From Gemmatimonadaceae bacterium (lineage in GTDB: Bacteria; Gemmatimonadota; Gemmatimonadetes; Gemmatimonadales; Gemmatimonadaceae), in contig DASYSS010000028.1 of assembly GCA_036003045.1 (NCBI GenBank), forward strand, positions 62,001-126,000: DNA of 64,000 nt. The letters run 5' to 3'. Below, one piece after another: positions 38,706 to 45,318 of the stretch. The first letter of the stretch is position 1, and each line of letters begins with the position of its first letter. The translations under genes and the position numbers were made by a program. The notes beneath the pieces were generated by a model. It saw nothing but the letters and a program-made list of their open reading frames with translations, had not been told where the DNA came from and ran no database searches.

Positions 38706-39842
38706 TCACTTTGACATCCCGATCACGTCGCCGTACCACTGAATCTTCCCGTCGTTGAACGCCTTGAGCAGGTCCTGAATTCCCGACGTCACCGACGCGA
38801 GTCGCCCGCCGAAGCGCATCTGCGGAGACGCGTTGTTGAAGCCGCCGCGGAAGCCTCCGCCGATCGAGCGAATGAACGTGCTGTTCGAGTCGAGCGGCAG
38901 CGTCGCGACGTTCTTATAGTAGAGCGACCACTCGTCGTTTTGCTGGAAGAGATACTGCTCCACGTTGGACGTGTAGAACGCGCCCACGACCGCGTGGTGA
39001 TCCTTGAGATACTGTGCGACGGCGCGGATCGCCTTCGGACCCGCGAAATTGCCGACGACCGGGATGAGCAGGTTCTTCGTCTCGAAATCCTTGAGCCACC
39101 GGAAATTCGCTTCCGTCGCGAGATAGGCCCAGTTCTTTCCCGTGGTGTCGGTCGCCACCTGAAGCGTGGCGTACGTGGGCATGTTCCCGCGTCCGAATCC
39201 GCCGCCTCCGCCGTTCGAGAAGTTGTAGTTGATCTGCGGCCCGGCCTCGTAGAACTGCGAATAGATGTACTCCAGCGACTTGACGTCGCTGTCGCCCATC
39301 GTGAAGCCGCGCGACGCGAGGTGCGCCTTGATCGCGGCGAGGTTCCTCTTGTAGAGCGTCGAGTCGGGCGTCGCCGCGATATACGCCTCGAACAGCCGTT
39401 GGGGCGTCGAGGTCGTGTCTAATCCCGGTGGACGCGGCCGACTGAACAACTTCGACAGGAACTCGGCGCGATCGGCCGACGTCTCGAGCAACGCCTTGTA
39501 CATCAGGTGCTCGATCATGTTGCCGCGGCGGATGTCGAAGATGATCGCGATCTTCGGCTGCAATGACACGATGTACGTGAAGTTCTGCTCGGGTCCGACG
39601 CCAAGATACACGCTGCCCGGCTTGATCACGCTGCGGAGATACGGGATCACGGCTTGGAACCCGGTTTCGTTCGACAACAGGTTGTCGGAACGGAAATAGC
39701 CGCCCGGCTCCGAGAATTCCGCGTTGAGCTGCCAAATCTCCTTGTCGGTGAGCCGCGAGGGGATCGTGCTCTGAGCGTTCCCGACCGTCGGAGCGGCGAT
39801 GACTAAGGCCGCTGCGAGCGTGGTCCATCTCTGTCCGTTCAT
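38706..39842 (-). CDS. Exported protein resembling the LIC_10091 family
   Basis: 378 aa with signal peptide (TLAAALVIAAPTVGNAQ). Core motifs LTDKEIWQLNAEFSEPGGYF, NLLSNETGFQAVIPYL, VYLGVGPEQNFTYIVSLQPK, FDIRRGNMIEHLMYKAL resemble a family (LIC_10091-like) whose fold is close to SAM-dependent methyltransferases, but I see no clear SAM-binding motif beyond that and the protein is exported. Function unknown; the family name is from memory, moderate to low certainty. It ends 70 bases before the trmFO start region and is probably the first gene of that leftward unit. Confidence 0.5.
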   Translation of the reverse strand: MNGQRWTTLAAALVIAAPTVGNAQSTIPSRLTDKEIWQLNAEFSEPGGYFRSDNLLSNETGFQAVIPYLRSVIKPGSVYLGVGPEQNFTYIVSLQPKIAIIFDIRRGNMIEHLMYKALLETSADRAEFLSKLFSRPRPPGLDTTSTPQRLFEAYIAATPDSTLYKRNLAAIKAHLASRGFTMGDSDVKSLEYIYSQFYEAGPQINYNFSNGGGGGFGRGNMPTYATLQVATDTTGKNWAYLATEANFRWLKDFETKNLLIPVVGNFAGPKAIRAVAQYLKDHHAVVGAFYTSNVEQYLFQQNDEWSLYYKNVATLPLDSNSTFIRSIGGGFRGGFNNASPQMRFGGRLASVTSGIQDLLKAFNDGKIQWYGDVIGMSK

Positions 39843-40101
39843 ATCGGTCTCGTGTTCTTGAAGGCTTGGCGCCGGCGGCTGTGCCCCCTTCCCGCGCGCC
39901 TCCCTGCAAAATGCACCGCCGCGCTCTACACGTCACCTCCGTCGCGCGTTGGCGGTCGCCTTTCGCGACGGCAGTCCTCCGAGATCCGATTTCGCACCGC
40001 CGGCGTACCCTCCGCACTTGGCCCGGACTGGCCGAGTGCAACGCTTGGGGCCGTCGCATTTCGGCCGCGCGCCCCGGCTCAATTCCCACTAGGAGGGCTC
40101 C

Positions 40102-40836
40102 ATGCGGTTTCCCTTCCATACGCCAGGGGCGCGCCTGGCAGCGGCCGTCGCAACGGTCGCAATTCTCGCCGGTGCCCGTATCGGCGTCGCGCGCGCGTCG
40201 GACCACCAGGACAATCCACTCGTCGAGGTGAACCCGGCGATGGACATGACCGACGTCTACGCATTTCCGGGCTCGTCGCCCGACCGGATCGCGCTGGTCC
40301 TCAACAGCTGGGCGTTTCTCACGCCGGCGCAGACGCCGTCCACCTCGTTCGATCCGAATCTTCTTTACCAGTTCAAGGTCGACAACACCGGCGACGCCAA
40401 GGAAGACAAGGTCATTCAAATCGTCTTCAAGGGCACCGGCGCGAATCAGACGGTCGAAGTGCGCGGCCCGGTCGCGCCGCCGCTGCCGGGGGCGATGAAC
40501 AACCAGATCGCCAATGTGTCCCCGGCGGTGTCCGGCGCGGTGAATCAGGTACTCGGCTCGCCGAGCGGAATTCAGGTGTTCGCCGGCGCGCGCGAGGAGC
40601 CGTTCTTCATCGACCTCGAGCAGTTCTTCCGCATCATCCCGGACCGCAAGCCGTCGACCGGAACGCTGTCCGCGCTGCCAGACACGGCGACAGCGGGATC
40701 GTTCCGCACCGCCGCCGCGGCGGTGGACTTCACGAAAGGATTCAACGTGTTGTCGATCGTCGTCGAGCTCCCGACCTCGATGCTGACCGCGGGCGGATCC
40801 GCGAAGCTCGGCATCTGGGGCACGATCAGCCGCTGA
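40102..40836 (+). CDS. DUF4331-family exported protein, N-terminal-type half
   Basis: 244 aa with a signal peptide (AAVATVAILAGARIGVARAS). AGGAGG at 40091-40096 sits 5 nt before the ATG. The first part, SDHQDNPLVEVNPAMDMTDV and YAFPGSSPDRIALVLNSWAF, then LDLEQFFRIIPDRK-type (here IDLEQFFRIIPDRKPSTG), is the N-terminal half of DUF4331 proteins. The usual C-terminal half is missing and is found in the next gene. Exported; the function of the family is unknown. First gene of a five-gene plus-strand operon. Confidence 0.85.
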   Translation: MRFPFHTPGARLAAAVATVAILAGARIGVARASDHQDNPLVEVNPAMDMTDVYAFPGSSPDRIALVLNSWAFLTPAQTPSTSFDPNLLYQFKVDNTGDAKEDKVIQIVFKGTGANQTVEVRGPVAPPLPGAMNNQIANVSPAVSGAVNQVLGSPSGIQVFAGAREEPFFIDLEQFFRIIPDRKPSTGTLSALPDTATAGSFRTAAAAVDFTKGFNVLSIVVELPTSMLTAGGSAKLGIWGTISR

Positions 40837-40890
40837 CCGACGGCGAATCAACTCACGACAACAACTCAACGCTCATAGAGGCGAATCACA

Positions 40891-41469
40891 ATGTCCATGC
40901 ATTTGCTCCGGAGCCGAGGTCGCGCTCTCGCGCTGGCGGCCGCGATGTCGGCGCTCGCGCTGACGGTGGGCTGCTCCGACGACAACGACACGACGGGTCC
41001 GAGCTCGAACTCGCCCCGCACTTTCAATCAGGTTCAGCGGCTCGGCAACCCGCTGGTGAGCGAGGTTTTCCTCGCGAAAAAGGACCATGGCTTTCACGGG
41101 TCGATCGGTCCGGATGGCGACGCGGCCGCGTTTGGCGGCACGGTGAAAGGATTCGTCGCCGCGTTCAGACCGCAGGCGACCACGCTGCAGAACACGCTCG
41201 CGTCGGTCCTGTTGCCGGACATGCTGATCGTGCAGACGGACAAGGCGACGACGACGGCCGGATGGCTCAGTTGGGCCCTCTCGAATGGATGGGGCGGCCG
41301 AAAGCTCACCGACGACGTCGTCGACGTGGGGCTCACGGGGATCTTCAGCGACCTGCTCGATCCGACGCAGTCGGTGTGCAAGCCGTTCACGCTCCCGCTC
41401 TGCACGGACAACGTCGGCTCCCACAGCACGTTCCAGACTGCGTTCCCGTACCTCGCGAATCCGAAGTAG
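40891..41469 (+). CDS. DUF4331-family lipoprotein, C-terminal-type half
   Basis: 192 aa. Lipoprotein signal with lipobox ending at VGC (ALALTVGCSDDND). RLGNPLVSEVFLAKKDHGFH at ~47-66, TLASVLLPDMLIVQTDKA and GGRKLTDDVVDVGLTGIFSD are the C-terminal block of DUF4331 proteins, which in most genomes is fused to the half encoded by the gene before. So a family that is usually one protein is here two, both exported; the halves probably pair. 54 bases after the first half and 4 bases before the TPR gene. Confidence 0.82.
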   Translation: MSMHLLRSRGRALALAAAMSALALTVGCSDDNDTTGPSSNSPRTFNQVQRLGNPLVSEVFLAKKDHGFHGSIGPDGDAAAFGGTVKGFVAAFRPQATTLQNTLASVLLPDMLIVQTDKATTTAGWLSWALSNGWGGRKLTDDVVDVGLTGIFSDLLDPTQSVCKPFTLPLCTDNVGSHSTFQTAFPYLANPK

Positions 41470-41473
41470 GGCC

Positions 41474-42784
41474 ATGACACGACTTCCGTCGCGCCGTTTG
41501 TGCCGGCCGCTCCTGGCCGCCCGCGTTGTTTTCTCCGCGCTGGCAGCCGGCGCGGCGGTGGTCGGGTGCTCGCGGAGCGCGCCCGACACGCGAGGCACGA
41601 TCTCGGCGCCCGCACCGCGGCTTACCGAAGGTGAAGTGCTCGACCTGGATATAGAGTTTTATAAGCAGCGCGCCGACCGCGATCCGACGGGCGCCACGGA
41701 CCTGGCCCGTCTCGCCGGCCTCTACCTGCGACGCTCCCGTGAGACCGGCGACCCGAGCGACGCACTTCGCGCTGAATTCGCGGCTCGACGGTCCGTTCGC
41801 AACCGTGATTCCCGCAACGACGCCGCGGCGCAGGTCCTATCGGCGAGCCTGCTCGCGCAGCATCGGTTCGACGAAGCCCTTTCGATCGCTCGGTCGCTGC
41901 GCGATCGGAACCCGGACGTTCCCTCGCTTCGCGCCGCCGTCGGCGAGATCCAGATGGAGCTTGGGCAGTACGACTCGGCGCGGGTGATATTCGATGGTCT
42001 CGCCGGGTTTGCTCATGATTTGTCGATCGCGCCGCGGCTCGCTCGATGGGCGGAGATCGAGGGGCGCACCGGCGAGGCCCGGTGGCTCATGCGCACGGCG
42101 CTCAAGACCGCGCAGGCGACGCCGCACCTTCCACGGGAACAGGTCGCGTGGTTTTGGCTGCGCAACGGCGACCTCGATCTGAGGAGCGGGAAATTCAGCG
42201 AGGCCGACTCCGAATACCGAGCGGGTCTCGCCGTTCACCCGGGGGACTATCGACTCCTCGCCGCACAGGCGAAGCTCGCCGCGACGCGGCATGAATGGCA
42301 GGCCGCGATCGCCGCGGGTGAGGAGGCGATCGCCACCTCGCTCGATCCCGCGACGCTCGGCGTCTTGAGCGACGCCTACGCGGCGGTCGGCGACAGCGCC
42401 GAGTCGCGCGAGTACGCTCGCGCGCTCGACGTCGCCGTGCTCAAGCAGCCGGGAGCCTACCACCGCGCGTGGAGTCTCTTTTTGCTCGACCACCGCCGGC
42501 ACGTCGGCACCGTCTATCGCAAAGTGCTCGTCGAGCTCCAGACGCGACGCGACATCTACGGATACGATTTGCTCGCCTGGGCGCTGCACGCGCAAGGCCG
42601 CGACGCGGAAGCGAAGGAGGCGATGACTCGTGCGCTCGCTCAGGGAACGCGGGACGCGCAACTCTTCCACCACGCTGCGGCCATCGAGCACTCGCTCGGC
42701 AACGAAGCCGCGGCCAACGCGTTGTTCGCGCAAGCTCGAGCGCTGGAGCCGGGCTTCGCCGCGTCGCGGTCGGAGGGACAATGA
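41474..42784 (+). CDS. TPR-repeat lipoprotein
   Basis: 436 aa. Start at ATG 41474, 4 nt after the previous stop. Lipobox VVGC at ~34 (AAGAAVVGCSRSAPD). Helical TPR-like repeats fill the rest: DLARLAGLYLRRSRETGDPS, ALSIARSLRDRNPDVPSLRA, FSEADSEYRAGLAVHPGDYR, DAEAKEAMTRALAQGTRDAQ, AANALFAQARALEPGFAA. Probably a scaffold at the outer membrane or periplasm for the other proteins of the operon. Its TGA overlaps the start of the HupE/UreJ gene (ATGA at 42781-42784). Confidence 0.82.
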   Translation: MTRLPSRRLCRPLLAARVVFSALAAGAAVVGCSRSAPDTRGTISAPAPRLTEGEVLDLDIEFYKQRADRDPTGATDLARLAGLYLRRSRETGDPSDALRAEFAARRSVRNRDSRNDAAAQVLSASLLAQHRFDEALSIARSLRDRNPDVPSLRAAVGEIQMELGQYDSARVIFDGLAGFAHDLSIAPRLARWAEIEGRTGEARWLMRTALKTAQATPHLPREQVAWFWLRNGDLDLRSGKFSEADSEYRAGLAVHPGDYRLLAAQAKLAATRHEWQAAIAAGEEAIATSLDPATLGVLSDAYAAVGDSAESREYARALDVAVLKQPGAYHRAWSLFLLDHRRHVGTVYRKVLVELQTRRDIYGYDLLAWALHAQGRDAEAKEAMTRALAQGTRDAQLFHHAAAIEHSLGNEAAANALFAQARALEPGFAASRSEGQ

Positions 42785-43398
42785 GCGAGCTCGCGACGTA
42801 CGTCCAACTCGGTTTCCGCCACATCGTCGACGTCGCGGCGATGGACCACATTCTGTTTCTCGTTGCGCTCGCGGCGATCTATCGCCCGCGCGACGTGCGG
42901 CAGGCGCTGTGGGTCATCAATGCGTTCACGATCGGGCACTCGGTGACGCTCGGCTTGGCGGTCACGGGGGTCGTGCACTTCCCGAGCGCGGTGATCGAAT
43001 TCCTGATCCCGGTGACGATCGTCGCGACCGGCGTCGAGAATCTCATCGCCAGCGCGCGACGGCGCGCCGGCATCCAGAGCCGGTATCGGCCCGTGTTCGC
43101 GGGCGTGTTCGGTCTCGTGCATGGCGCCGGCTTCGCCAACTACCTGGGCGCGATGTTCGTGACGCGCATCGCTCTGCCGTTGTTTGGATTCAACGTCGGG
43201 ATCGAGCTCGGCCAGATCGTGATTCTCGGCGCGGCGGCGATCGTACTCGCAGCGATCGATCTCGGCATCGACGCGGCGATCGCATTCTCGAAAGTGCCGA
43301 GCACGAGGTGGCCGGCGCTGCGCGTGCGGATCGTGGGCGTGTCGCTGCTCGTGGTTGCCGTCGCGTCCCGCTGGGCCGTGGAGCGAAGCCCGTGGTAG
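42781..43398 (+). CDS. HupE/UreJ-family membrane protein
   Basis: 205 aa, six to seven helices. His-rich conserved turns: HIVDVAAMDHILFLVALAAI at ~14-33, NAFTIGHSVTLGLAVTGVVH, FGLVHGAGFANYLGAM. HupE/UreJ proteins are nickel/cobalt or related permeases in hydrogenase and urease systems, but this subgroup is widely found without either enzyme and its substrate is not known. No hydrogenase or urease gene lies in the window. It overlaps both neighbours by 4 and 7 nt, so it is tightly co-translated with the TPR and DUF6702 genes. Confidence 0.82.
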   Translation: MSELATYVQLGFRHIVDVAAMDHILFLVALAAIYRPRDVRQALWVINAFTIGHSVTLGLAVTGVVHFPSAVIEFLIPVTIVATGVENLIASARRRAGIQSRYRPVFAGVFGLVHGAGFANYLGAMFVTRIALPLFGFNVGIELGQIVILGAAAIVLAAIDLGIDAAIAFSKVPSTRWPALRVRIVGVSLLVVAVASRWAVERSPW

Positions 43399-43868
43399 CC
43401 GCGTTGCTTCTCGCGACCGCGCTCGCGGCGAGTCGGGGGGAGGCGGGCGGCTTCCATCCGCTGCACACGACGATGGCGGAGGTAACGATCGACCGGCCTC
43501 GAGGTACGCTGCGCATCGTCGTGCGTGTGTTCGCGGACGACTTCGGCGTCGCGCTCGGGGCAATGGGCACGAGCGGATCGTGGGACACGCGTGCCTCAGC
43601 CTACGTGCGCCGGGCCATCGCGGTCGTGGCCCACGCGCGGGAGCCGCTCGCCATGCGCGATTGTGGGACGCGTCGCCAGGGCGATCTGCTCTGGCTCTGC
43701 GCTGAAGCGGCCATCCCCACCGAGCCGACGAATCGCCTCGCGCTTCGTGACCGGATGTTGTGCGAGCTGTTCGCGGACCAGATCAACGTTGTACGCGTGA
43801 CCGATGGGGCAAAGACGCGAAGTATGCTGTACACGCGCGGCGACTCCGAGAAGCCGCTCGCGGACTGA
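43392..43868 (+). CDS. DUF6702-family small exported protein
   Basis: 158 aa from GTG 43392, the first usable start after the HupE stop overlap. A signal-like N-terminus (VVAALLLATALAASRGEA) is followed by GGFHPLHTTMAEVTIDRPRG and LRIVVRVFADDFGVALGAMG, the hallmark of DUF6702 proteins. Its function is unknown; it is often found next to HupE-like proteins, as here. Last gene of the five-gene operon; 190 bases without a gene follow. Confidence 0.78.
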   Translation: MVAALLLATALAASRGEAGGFHPLHTTMAEVTIDRPRGTLRIVVRVFADDFGVALGAMGTSGSWDTRASAYVRRAIAVVAHAREPLAMRDCGTRRQGDLLWLCAEAAIPTEPTNRLALRDRMLCELFADQINVVRVTDGAKTRSMLYTRGDSEKPLAD

Positions 43869-44058: not shown

Positions 44059-45318
44059 ATGCGCCGTCAATCGCCGCGCTTCCTCCATCGGACAATGGCG
44101 TTGAGCGCCGCCGGGGCCATCGTCGCCGGCGCGGTGGCCTGCGGCAGCGATTCTGCCGGGCCGTCGTTTCCCGCCACACCTGCGGTCACGACGGCGTTGG
44201 CGACCGGGCAACAGTTCTCATGCGTCCTGACCACGGACGGCAAATCGTACTGCTGGGGTGACAACCTCCGCGGGCAGCTCGGGGATTCGTCGTTCAACCC
44301 GGAGCTGGTGCCGACGCCGACGGCCGGCGGACATCAGTTCGTCGCGATCGCGGCGGGATACTTCTCGGTCTGCGCGCTCGATCGAGGCGGCCGAGCTTGG
44401 TGTTGGGGCGACGACCCGACGCAGCCAGGGGTCCCGCTCAGCTATCGGACCGTTCCCGCGTCCGTCTCGGCGCCACATCCGTTCAAATCGATCACGGTCG
44501 GCGCCAAGTTCGGCTGCGGGCTCGACTCGGGGGGAGCGGCGTACTGCTGGGGGATCAATACCCAAGGGCAGCTCGGTGTCGGCGACACGGTGCGCAGAAC
44601 AGGCGCGACCGCGGTGAAGACCGGCGTCCGATTCGCCTCGCTGGTCGCCAACTTCTGGAGTGTCTGCGGCCTCACCGCCGACGGCGCCGCCTGGTGCTGG
44701 GGCGACAACACGTACGGAGAGCTCGGCACCGGCGACATGGTCCCGTCGAACGTGCCGCGCGCCGCCGCCGGGACGCTCAAGCTTCACAACCTGTCGAGCG
44801 GGCCGATCCACGAGTGCGCTCTGACCGATGGCGGTGCGGCACTGTGCTGGGGAAACAACGCGTCCGGACAACTGGGCGAGGGAACCGGCATGCAGCGACT
44901 CGCGCCGACGCCGGTCGTCGGAGGGATCATGTTCAGCGCCATTCGCAGCTCCCGAGTGAATTCCATCTATTCGACGACGTGCGGCGTCACGTCATCGGGA
45001 GATGTCTACTGCTGGGGTTACGGATCCAAGGGGCAGCTGGCCGGCGCCCCAGCGACCTCCGCGTGCACACCATTCACGGCGGCCGGTGTCGTCAACCCCA
45101 ATCCGACGACGTTCGTGTGCGACTACACCCCGGAGAAGATCGCCGGCATCTCGAACGTCGTCGCGCTCGACGTTGGACTCGAGCACATCTGCGCAATCGA
45201 TGCCACGGCGCGACTGCTCTGCTGGGGCGATGGCGCGCACGGCGAGCTCGGAGACGGAAACGGCGTCGCCGAAGCGACACCGGTCCTCGTCAAAGGCGGG
45301 CTGCCCGTCCCGCACTGA
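44059..45318 (+). CDS. RCC1-repeat exported lipoprotein
   Basis: 419 aa. Signal with lipobox VACG at ~30 (GAIVAGAVACGSDSAGPS). Seven or so RCC1/ATS1-like propeller blades follow, each with a CWGDN- or YCWG-type centre (KSYCWGDNLRGQLGDSSF, RAWCWGDDPTQPG, AAYCWGINTQGQLGVGDTVR, AAWCWGDNTYGELGTGDMVP, ALCWGNNASGQLGEGTGM, DVYCWGYGSKGQLAGA, RLLCWGDGAHGELGDGNG). Each blade carries a Cys before Trp, unusual for eukaryotic RCC1 and typical of bacterial exported versions. Beta propeller, binding partner unknown. It ends 15 nt from the convergent topA. Confidence 0.85.
   Translation: MRRQSPRFLHRTMALSAAGAIVAGAVACGSDSAGPSFPATPAVTTALATGQQFSCVLTTDGKSYCWGDNLRGQLGDSSFNPELVPTPTAGGHQFVAIAAGYFSVCALDRGGRAWCWGDDPTQPGVPLSYRTVPASVSAPHPFKSITVGAKFGCGLDSGGAAYCWGINTQGQLGVGDTVRRTGATAVKTGVRFASLVANFWSVCGLTADGAAWCWGDNTYGELGTGDMVPSNVPRAAAGTLKLHNLSSGPIHECALTDGGAALCWGNNASGQLGEGTGMQRLAPTPVVGGIMFSAIRSSRVNSIYSTTCGVTSSGDVYCWGYGSKGQLAGAPATSACTPFTAAGVVNPNPTTFVCDYTPEKIAGISNVVALDVGLEHICAIDATARLLCWGDGAHGELGDGNGVAEATPVLVKGGLPVPH

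Follow-up and report, generated by a model that had tools for sequence, protein, structure and literature searches.

A five-gene DUF4331, TPR, HupE and DUF6702 operon of a Gemmatimonadaceae bacterium as a probable copper or nickel capture and transport module

We analyzed a five-gene operon in a 64,000-nucleotide (nt) stretch of DNA, hereafter the window, from a Gemmatimonadaceae bacterium (GenBank assembly GCA_036003045.1, contig DASYSS010000028.1, positions 62,001 to 126,000 of the forward strand). The operon encodes the two halves of a DUF4331 protein, a tetratricopeptide repeat (TPR) protein, a HupE_UreJ_2 permease, and a DUF6702 protein. It is probably a secreted metal-capture and transport module, for which uptake of Cu(II) or Ni(II) is the most likely role. 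This reading is based on results computed here: the gene order, the position of an X-X-His motif in DUF4331, a fold match of DUF6702, the replacement of HupE and DUF6702 by one-piece His1 permeases in other bacteria, and a shared promoter motif. The features are as follows.

39984..40007, + strand: ATCC-N16-CGTA, a motif of the extracytoplasmic function (ECF) promoter type; sole + strand match in window positions 30001-52000
40102..40836, + strand: gene 1, DUF4331 N-terminal half (DUF4331N), secreted by prediction; two PF14224 stretches, the best at profile positions 144-236 of 421, 120 bits (cut-off 27)
40891..41469, + strand: gene 2, DUF4331 C-terminal half (DUF4331C), predicted lipoprotein with the lipobox Cys codon at 40972; PF14224 profile positions 250-421, 51 bits (cut-off 27)
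41474..42784, + strand: gene 3, TPR protein (Pfam TPR), recurrent partner of DUF4331; N-terminal AVVGC lipobox-like motif seen by eye
42781..43398, + strand: gene 4, HupE_UreJ_2 permease without a fused His1 domain; PF13795, 145.5 bits (cut-off 24.5)
43392..43868, + strand: gene 5, DUF6702, predicted secreted metal-binding protein with HPLH at 43455-43466; PF20420, 66.9 bits (cut-off 24)

Layout and recurrence of the operon

The open reading frame (ORF) coordinates agreed with an earlier note on this DNA, which described five tightly spaced genes, three of them overlapping by 4 and 7 nt. The TPR and HupE genes overlap by 4 nt, and the HupE and DUF6702 genes by 7 nt. Pfam confirmed each family assigned in that note (DUF4331 twice, TPR, HupE/UreJ-type, and DUF6702), and its view of a single operon of envelope proteins that likely handles a metal was supported. 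NCBIfam gave a named function for none of the five proteins, as all matches were under the cut-off. The GTG start of gene 5 yields a signal peptide without a positive charge, and the true start may therefore lie upstream, within HupE. A lipobox scan of the TPR protein was positive in 10 of 62 relatives, and the same scan missed the AVVGC motif of the window.

We surveyed 298 Gemmatimonadota genomes and found DUF4331 in 44, DUF6702 in 79, and HupE_UreJ_2 in 179 of them. DUF6702 was present in 30 of the 44 genomes with DUF4331 versus 49 of the 254 others (p 3e-10, uncorrected for kinship). Loci were defined as stretches round the DUF4331 matches listed, with every one of the 44 genomes represented, our own genome by the window. 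A tally of 50 loci excludes the window, one locus without the N half (L163), and L188; some loci come from related or near-identical genomes (e.g., L184 and L185). Genes were called with an in-house codon scorer that failed to call DUF6702 in L152 and placed some starts wrongly, and neighbors were clustered as single-linkage BLAST groups.

DUF4331 was split in 47 of the 50 loci, and a TPR gene lay downstream in the same-strand run in 40. The genes for TPR, HupE, and DUF6702 followed DUF4331 contiguously in 18 loci, comprising 16 exact five-gene runs and two runs with one extra gene (L184 and L185). Loci without the full run ended at a contig edge, had no HupE, or belonged to genomes where the set was spread over more than one locus (e.g., G029). 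The scattering among relatives that the earlier note had named as a result unfavorable to it was thus largely absent. Because this gene set is found again in many other genomes, its grouping is not due to chance.

The division of DUF4331 into two genes is conserved and does not reflect a broken gene. DUF4331N carries an ordinary signal peptide, and a lipobox-like site was found in 56 of 66 distinct C-half sequences. The 10 without it were mostly unsplit or truncated, except that L180 and L182 are split yet had no site in the stretch searched. A frameshift origin was rejected because nearly all loci are split and most C halves bear a lipobox-like signal of their own. Outside the phylum, split DUF4331 was found in two Bacteroidota genomes (G300 and G309) and one Pseudomonadota genome (G578). 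It was unsplit in Actinobacteria, Pseudomonadota, Chlorobiota, and other Bacteroidota. The Pseudomonadota sample (155 genomes) yielded the family in 8 genomes.

Two further copies differ in form. The own genome holds a second DUF4331 (L188; G000:C23:5000-20000) as a single ORF with no TPR neighbor and the candidate start M-S-H-H. One unsplit Bacteroidota DUF4331 (L226) bears a DUF11 domain and a type IX secretion sorting tail; because of this tail, it is probably located on the cell surface.

The N-terminus of DUF4331 and its permease partners

In the window, the signal peptide of DUF4331N ends with ARA and is followed by SDHQDNP, with the S-D-H codons at 40198-40206. For 61 of 66 distinct N-termini (10 ORFs without the motif were left out), a signal-peptidase-like site fell immediately ahead of X-X-His. 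Under a looser rule, nearly free at position -3, 80 distinct N-termini were placed: in 74 of them X-X-His followed a cleavage site, and in 6 it came immediately after a start codon. In a few cases, the cleavage-site placement took a neighboring His (L012, L167, L249, and apparently L188). Twelve distinct ORFs, some truncated, were left unplaced, and X-X-His was seen by eye in L001, L002, L197, L207, and L143 among them.

The motif at the predicted mature N-terminus was kept across five phyla. With a slash marking the predicted cleavage, Pseudomonadota members start as A/SSH, A/SDH, or A/ADH, and Bacteroidota and Chlorobiota members as A/SSH, A/TSH, or A/ADH. In the Actinobacteria sample, where L225 was unplaced and L208 truncated, secreted members start as A/SSHREA. 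Those without a signal peptide show the motif directly after the start codon (ATG/ADH, ATG/SNH, ATG/SHH, ATG/SDH, GTG/SDH, and ATG/SSH), and these members may have an earlier start. H3 was the sole invariant His among 14 aligned DUF4331 N halves. An alignment mixing both halves with the Chlorobiota locus L081 was misaligned and discarded.

The human copper importer CTR1 starts with M-D-H. The NH2-X-X-His sequence is the amino-terminal copper and nickel (ATCUN) site, exemplified by serum albumin, whose site takes other metals too, as described in an excerpt of PMC7701195. DUF4331N is thus a putative ATCUN chelate, for which tight binding of Cu(II) or Ni(II) is expected from the sequence. Its structural model had a predicted local distance difference test (pLDDT) score of only 74, and residues 1-12 were below 50. 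No known fold was found for it among the families listed; Foldseek returned nothing at E 0.001, and the best VIA match was to antibodies (Z 6.1). A full-text literature search for DUF4331, which lacked most subscription journals and did not include the accession PF14224, found no paper.

The earlier note stated that none of the five proteins has a known function, which is outdated for HupE_UreJ_2 and DUF6702. According to the excerpt of PMC12537917, a DUF6702 protein (PaDUF6702, a 'metal sequesterase') binds Ni at pM and Co and Cu at nM levels, the Ang-1 domain binds Cu and Ni, and HupE/UreJ-2 proteins fused with Ang-1/Ang-2 are termed anglerases. The terms 'DUF6702' and 'anglerase' were both found only in that paper in the literature search, which lacked most subscription journals.

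We compared the window DUF6702 with these proteins. Its AlphaFold model from HPLH onward had a pLDDT of 94.8. In VIA, the top rank went to PDB 9gce, the Ang-1 domain, with Cu bound, from a HupE/UreJ-2 protein (Z 11.8, root-mean-square deviation 2.4, 119 of 137 residues aligned), in a tie with ZrgA (8f1b, Z 11.4); PA4063 entries scored 9.8 to 10.3 and the next row 6.8. Profile-profile alignment of DUF6702 with 17 HupE-fused N-domains placed His on His (probability 71% in forced global mode; 63% locally over 75 columns), and it spans both profiles whole only in the forced global mode. From the Ang-1 fold match, the His-on-His alignment, and the excerpt of PMC12537917, DUF6702 and HupE read as a two-gene counterpart of the one-piece Ang-HupE permeases. 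We did not file them as an anglerase, because the two proteins are not fused and the presence of a His1 is uncertain.

Four His, one Asp, and one Glu of HupE were identical in 100 of 100 distinct sequences. The HupE query retrieved 333 relatives from Gemmatimonadota and other phyla, and a DUF6702 ORF accompanied 41 of the best 80, in either order or divergently. Some Bacteroidota stretches contained a HupE-DUF6702 pair without DUF4331. L190, L191, and L192, also without DUF4331, show a second arrangement, in the order HupE, M1-type peptidase (Pfam-checked in L190), DUF6702. The own genome encodes another, longer HupE (L189; G000:C70:22000-37000), one-piece and anglerase-like, with the predicted mature start A/HDIPAS.

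Three permease architectures were found beside DUF4331: separate HupE and DUF6702, fused His1-HupE, and His1-NicO. In Chlorobiota L081, the gene order is DUF4331-TPR-DUF6702-HupE. In Pseudomonadota, a long His1-HupE with the predicted mature start A/HKA follows DUF4331 in three of four full-length loci (L256, L258, and L259). A TPR protein lies between them in L256 and L259, and the intervening ORF of L258 is TPR-like by eye only. In 7 of 12 Actinobacterial loci, DUF4331-TPR is followed by an A/HPLG domain with a NicO-type permease that has His-rich loops; six of these seven passed the NicO Pfam cut-off, and L238 was below it. Because fused His1-HupE, His1-NicO, and the DUF6702-HupE of L081 all occur at DUF4331 loci, DUF4331 is repeatedly partnered by a domain of the His1 type together with a Ni/Co/Cu-type permease.

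Promoter motif and candidate regulator

The sequence ATCC-N15-17-CGTA was present before DUF4331N in 50 of 54 loci versus 11 of 454 background upstream regions, and in about 0.5 of 54 shuffled sequences, which kept base content only. This motif was read off the loci bearing an ECF gene (20 of 20), loosened, and then tested on the remaining loci. It was found in 30 of the 34 hold-out loci without an ECF gene, window included, or 29 of 33 without the window, whose match was known beforehand. Two matches lay at or inside the called start (L145 and L186). The same motif preceded 13 of 20 ECF genes and 6 of 18 genes for TonB-dependent receptors. It preceded none of 33 HupE genes, as expected because HupE is an inner operon gene.

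Members of the ECF sigma and RskA-type anti-sigma clusters were found in 18 of the 50 stretches, and TonB-dependent-receptor cluster members in 15; Pfam checks covered two of the receptor members and one ECF/anti-sigma pair. ECF/RskA-type pairs also lay near several DUF4331 copies outside Gemmatimonadota. The adjacent regulator that the earlier note proposed searching for was thus represented by an ECF sigma/RskA-type pair, often linked in relatives, and the shared promoter motif is also present in the window. Only one RskA_C anti-sigma match was found in the own genome; it lies on another contig, and the ECF gene next to it is <=58% identical to the locus ECF genes of relatives. The motif site at this ECF gene may be coding, as in L159. 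We infer that this ECF factor reads the window promoter.

A divergent neighbor precedes the operon (window 38706-39842); it matches DUF7790 (E 2e-26) and, below threshold, LIC_10091 lipoprotein. An RCC1-repeat protein is encoded downstream (44059-45318). In G144 (L137), a genome of the same genus, the cluster mate of this protein is encoded immediately upstream of the operon, and the flanks are otherwise conserved.

Proposed mechanism, alternatives, and comparison with known systems

From the results above, we infer metal binding, metal identity, the order of handover, the direction of import, and sigma control, as follows. An ECF sigma factor would turn on the single promoter at 39984. DUF4331N would be exported and cleaved, exposing a Ser-Asp-His N-terminus as an ATCUN chelate for Cu(II) or Ni(II). 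It would be paired with the lipid-anchored DUF4331C and the TPR protein, which may tether or dock it, the TPR protein serving as a putative adaptor or scaffold. DUF6702, as an Ang-like metal-binding protein, would receive the metal, which would then pass through HupE, the permease with the invariant His, Asp, and Glu residues. In some relatives, the TonB-dependent receptor of the same stretch may be the outer-membrane door.

Several results weigh against such an uptake module. DUF6702 was missing from 14 of the 44 genomes with DUF4331, and the HupE-DUF6702 run from most of the 50 DUF4331 loci. In DUF4331, the simple cleavage rule also permits a site one residue later in 35 of the 66 N-termini, sites further upstream fit in 2 to 29 of 66, and X-X-His could be a structural N-terminus. 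In the window DUF6702, GGF precedes HPLH without a cleavage site, and a fitting site before this His was found in 30 of 66 relatives (4 more ORFs lacked the motif). Foldseek with the DUF6702 model ranked ZrgA and PA4063 first, both solved with zinc, and 9gce was not among the 50 rows listed. For control, none of the genes called near the operon (window 30001-52000) belonged to the ECF cluster, other-phylum loci tested had no motif before DUF4331 except L081, and Rfam gave no metal riboswitch match in 17 loci and 20 kb of the window. The nickel enzymes considered next also belong here.

A NiFe-hydrogenase large-subunit match is present in the own genome on contig C46, the operon being on C28; hence the earlier description of a HupE-like protein without hydrogenase holds for the window and fails for the genome. 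Hydrogenase showed no association with DUF4331 (11 of 44 versus 72 of 254 genomes, p 0.72). A hydrogenase partner beside the permease, which the earlier note had said would contradict it, was not seen near DUF4331 among the matches listed; there, G112:C53 was the sole contig with both hydrogenase and DUF4331, at a distance of 45 kb. Urease matched in 63 of the 298 genomes, 42 over the cut-off; only that of G052 was strong and covered the whole model, and the other 62 were weak and partial (best E 2e-5). Service to hydrogenase or urease was therefore rejected. Nickel superoxide dismutase (Ni-SOD) was also rejected as a client in Gemmatimonadota, as it was found in 0 of 80 chosen genomes (35 with and 45 without DUF4331); in the Actinobacteria sample, the same model did find matches (39 of 119 genomes). 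Nickel is thus weakened for Gemmatimonadota. In the Actinobacteria sample, Ni-SOD occurred in 18 of 21 genomes with DUF4331 versus 21 of 98 others, with kinship and genome size uncontrolled; the first count is 17 of 20 without G414, which is below the DUF4331 cut-off. Copper seems the better guess for Gemmatimonadota, and nickel for Actinobacteria.

We also considered zinc (or cobalt) as the cargo, with DUF6702 acting like ZrgA or PA4063 and X-X-His having another role. The leading Foldseek matches, the tie of ZrgA with Ang-1 in VIA, and the TonB-dependent-receptor members in 15 stretches would agree with this. However, Cu-bound Ang-1 matches equally well and is the domain joined to HupE. ATCUN sites serve for copper and nickel, even if the albumin site accepts other metals too (excerpt of PMC7701195), and control of the operon appears to be of the ECF type (no scan for Zur sites was made). 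We therefore regard zinc as unlikely. Export or detoxification, suggested by the His-rich loops of the Actinobacterial proteins and by the NicO family, which includes the Ni/Co exporter RcnA, appears very unlikely, since TonB-dependent receptors are import devices, the promoter motif precedes some of their genes, and secreted binders suit scavenging better.

Another explanation is that one sigma regulon holds two modules: HupE-DUF6702 for a metal, and a metal-free DUF4331-TPR pair for the surface or envelope, with a structural N-terminal His. The many loci with DUF4331-TPR but without HupE or DUF6702, the Bacteroidota DUF4331 with a type IX sorting tail, and the HupE-DUF6702 pairs lacking DUF4331 point in this direction. 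Nevertheless, it seems improbable, as X-X-His is at the predicted N-terminus in both secreted and non-secreted branches, DUF4331 is accompanied by three permease architectures, and the low pLDDT of residues 1-12 gives no evident packing role, albeit in a model of modest quality.

With the metal-uptake module preferred, a broader view is put forward tentatively, as a plausible one. DUF4331 may be a widespread family of metal catchers with a free X-X-His N-terminus as their evolved feature, generated by signal peptidase or Met removal. Its secreted members, together with the TPR partner, would serve interchangeable His1-domain permeases (HupE with DUF6702, Ang-HupE, and NicO), under an ECF regulon in Gemmatimonadota, as one Cu/Ni acquisition system of at least five phyla. 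DUF4331, a widespread family of no assigned function, thereby gains a testable role, and uncharacterized parts are tied to metal-binding permeases described in 2025. A further prediction is an ECF regulon that should have a metal as its signal. If true, bacteria would have an added route of copper or nickel capture that uses the N-terminal chemistry of albumin.

The likeness to ATCUN proteins such as serum albumin (excerpt of PMC7701195) is the free N-terminal NH2-X-X-His, in DUF4331 by prediction; DUF4331 differs as an unrelated bacterial family. The HupE of hydrogenase operons is a related permease type, whereas here no hydrogenase was near DUF4331 among the matches listed and the two did not co-occur. 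ZrgA of Vibrio cholerae and PA4063 of Pseudomonas aeruginosa, which are under Zur control, are the nearest solved folds besides 9gce and bind zinc, but they differ in this cargo and in their partners. A text search of a Caulobacter Zur paper gave no mention of HupE, UreJ, or hydrogenase. PaDUF6702, with the published ligands His28 and His32, belongs to the same Pfam family; its neighbors in the excerpt of PMC12537917 include M1 peptidases and HAD_2 proteins, whereas here DUF6702 closes a DUF4331-TPR-HupE operon. The anglerases (excerpt of PMC12537917; PDB 9gce) share the permease family, the fold of the metal-binding partner, and the predicted membrane side. They differ in that the window has two overlapping genes without a clean His1 cleavage site, and an extra DUF4331 pair, TPR protein, and ECF-type promoter. 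Judging from sequence, predicted structure, and published relatives, the operon reads as a system that works like an anglerase with an added ATCUN-bearing DUF4331 pair.

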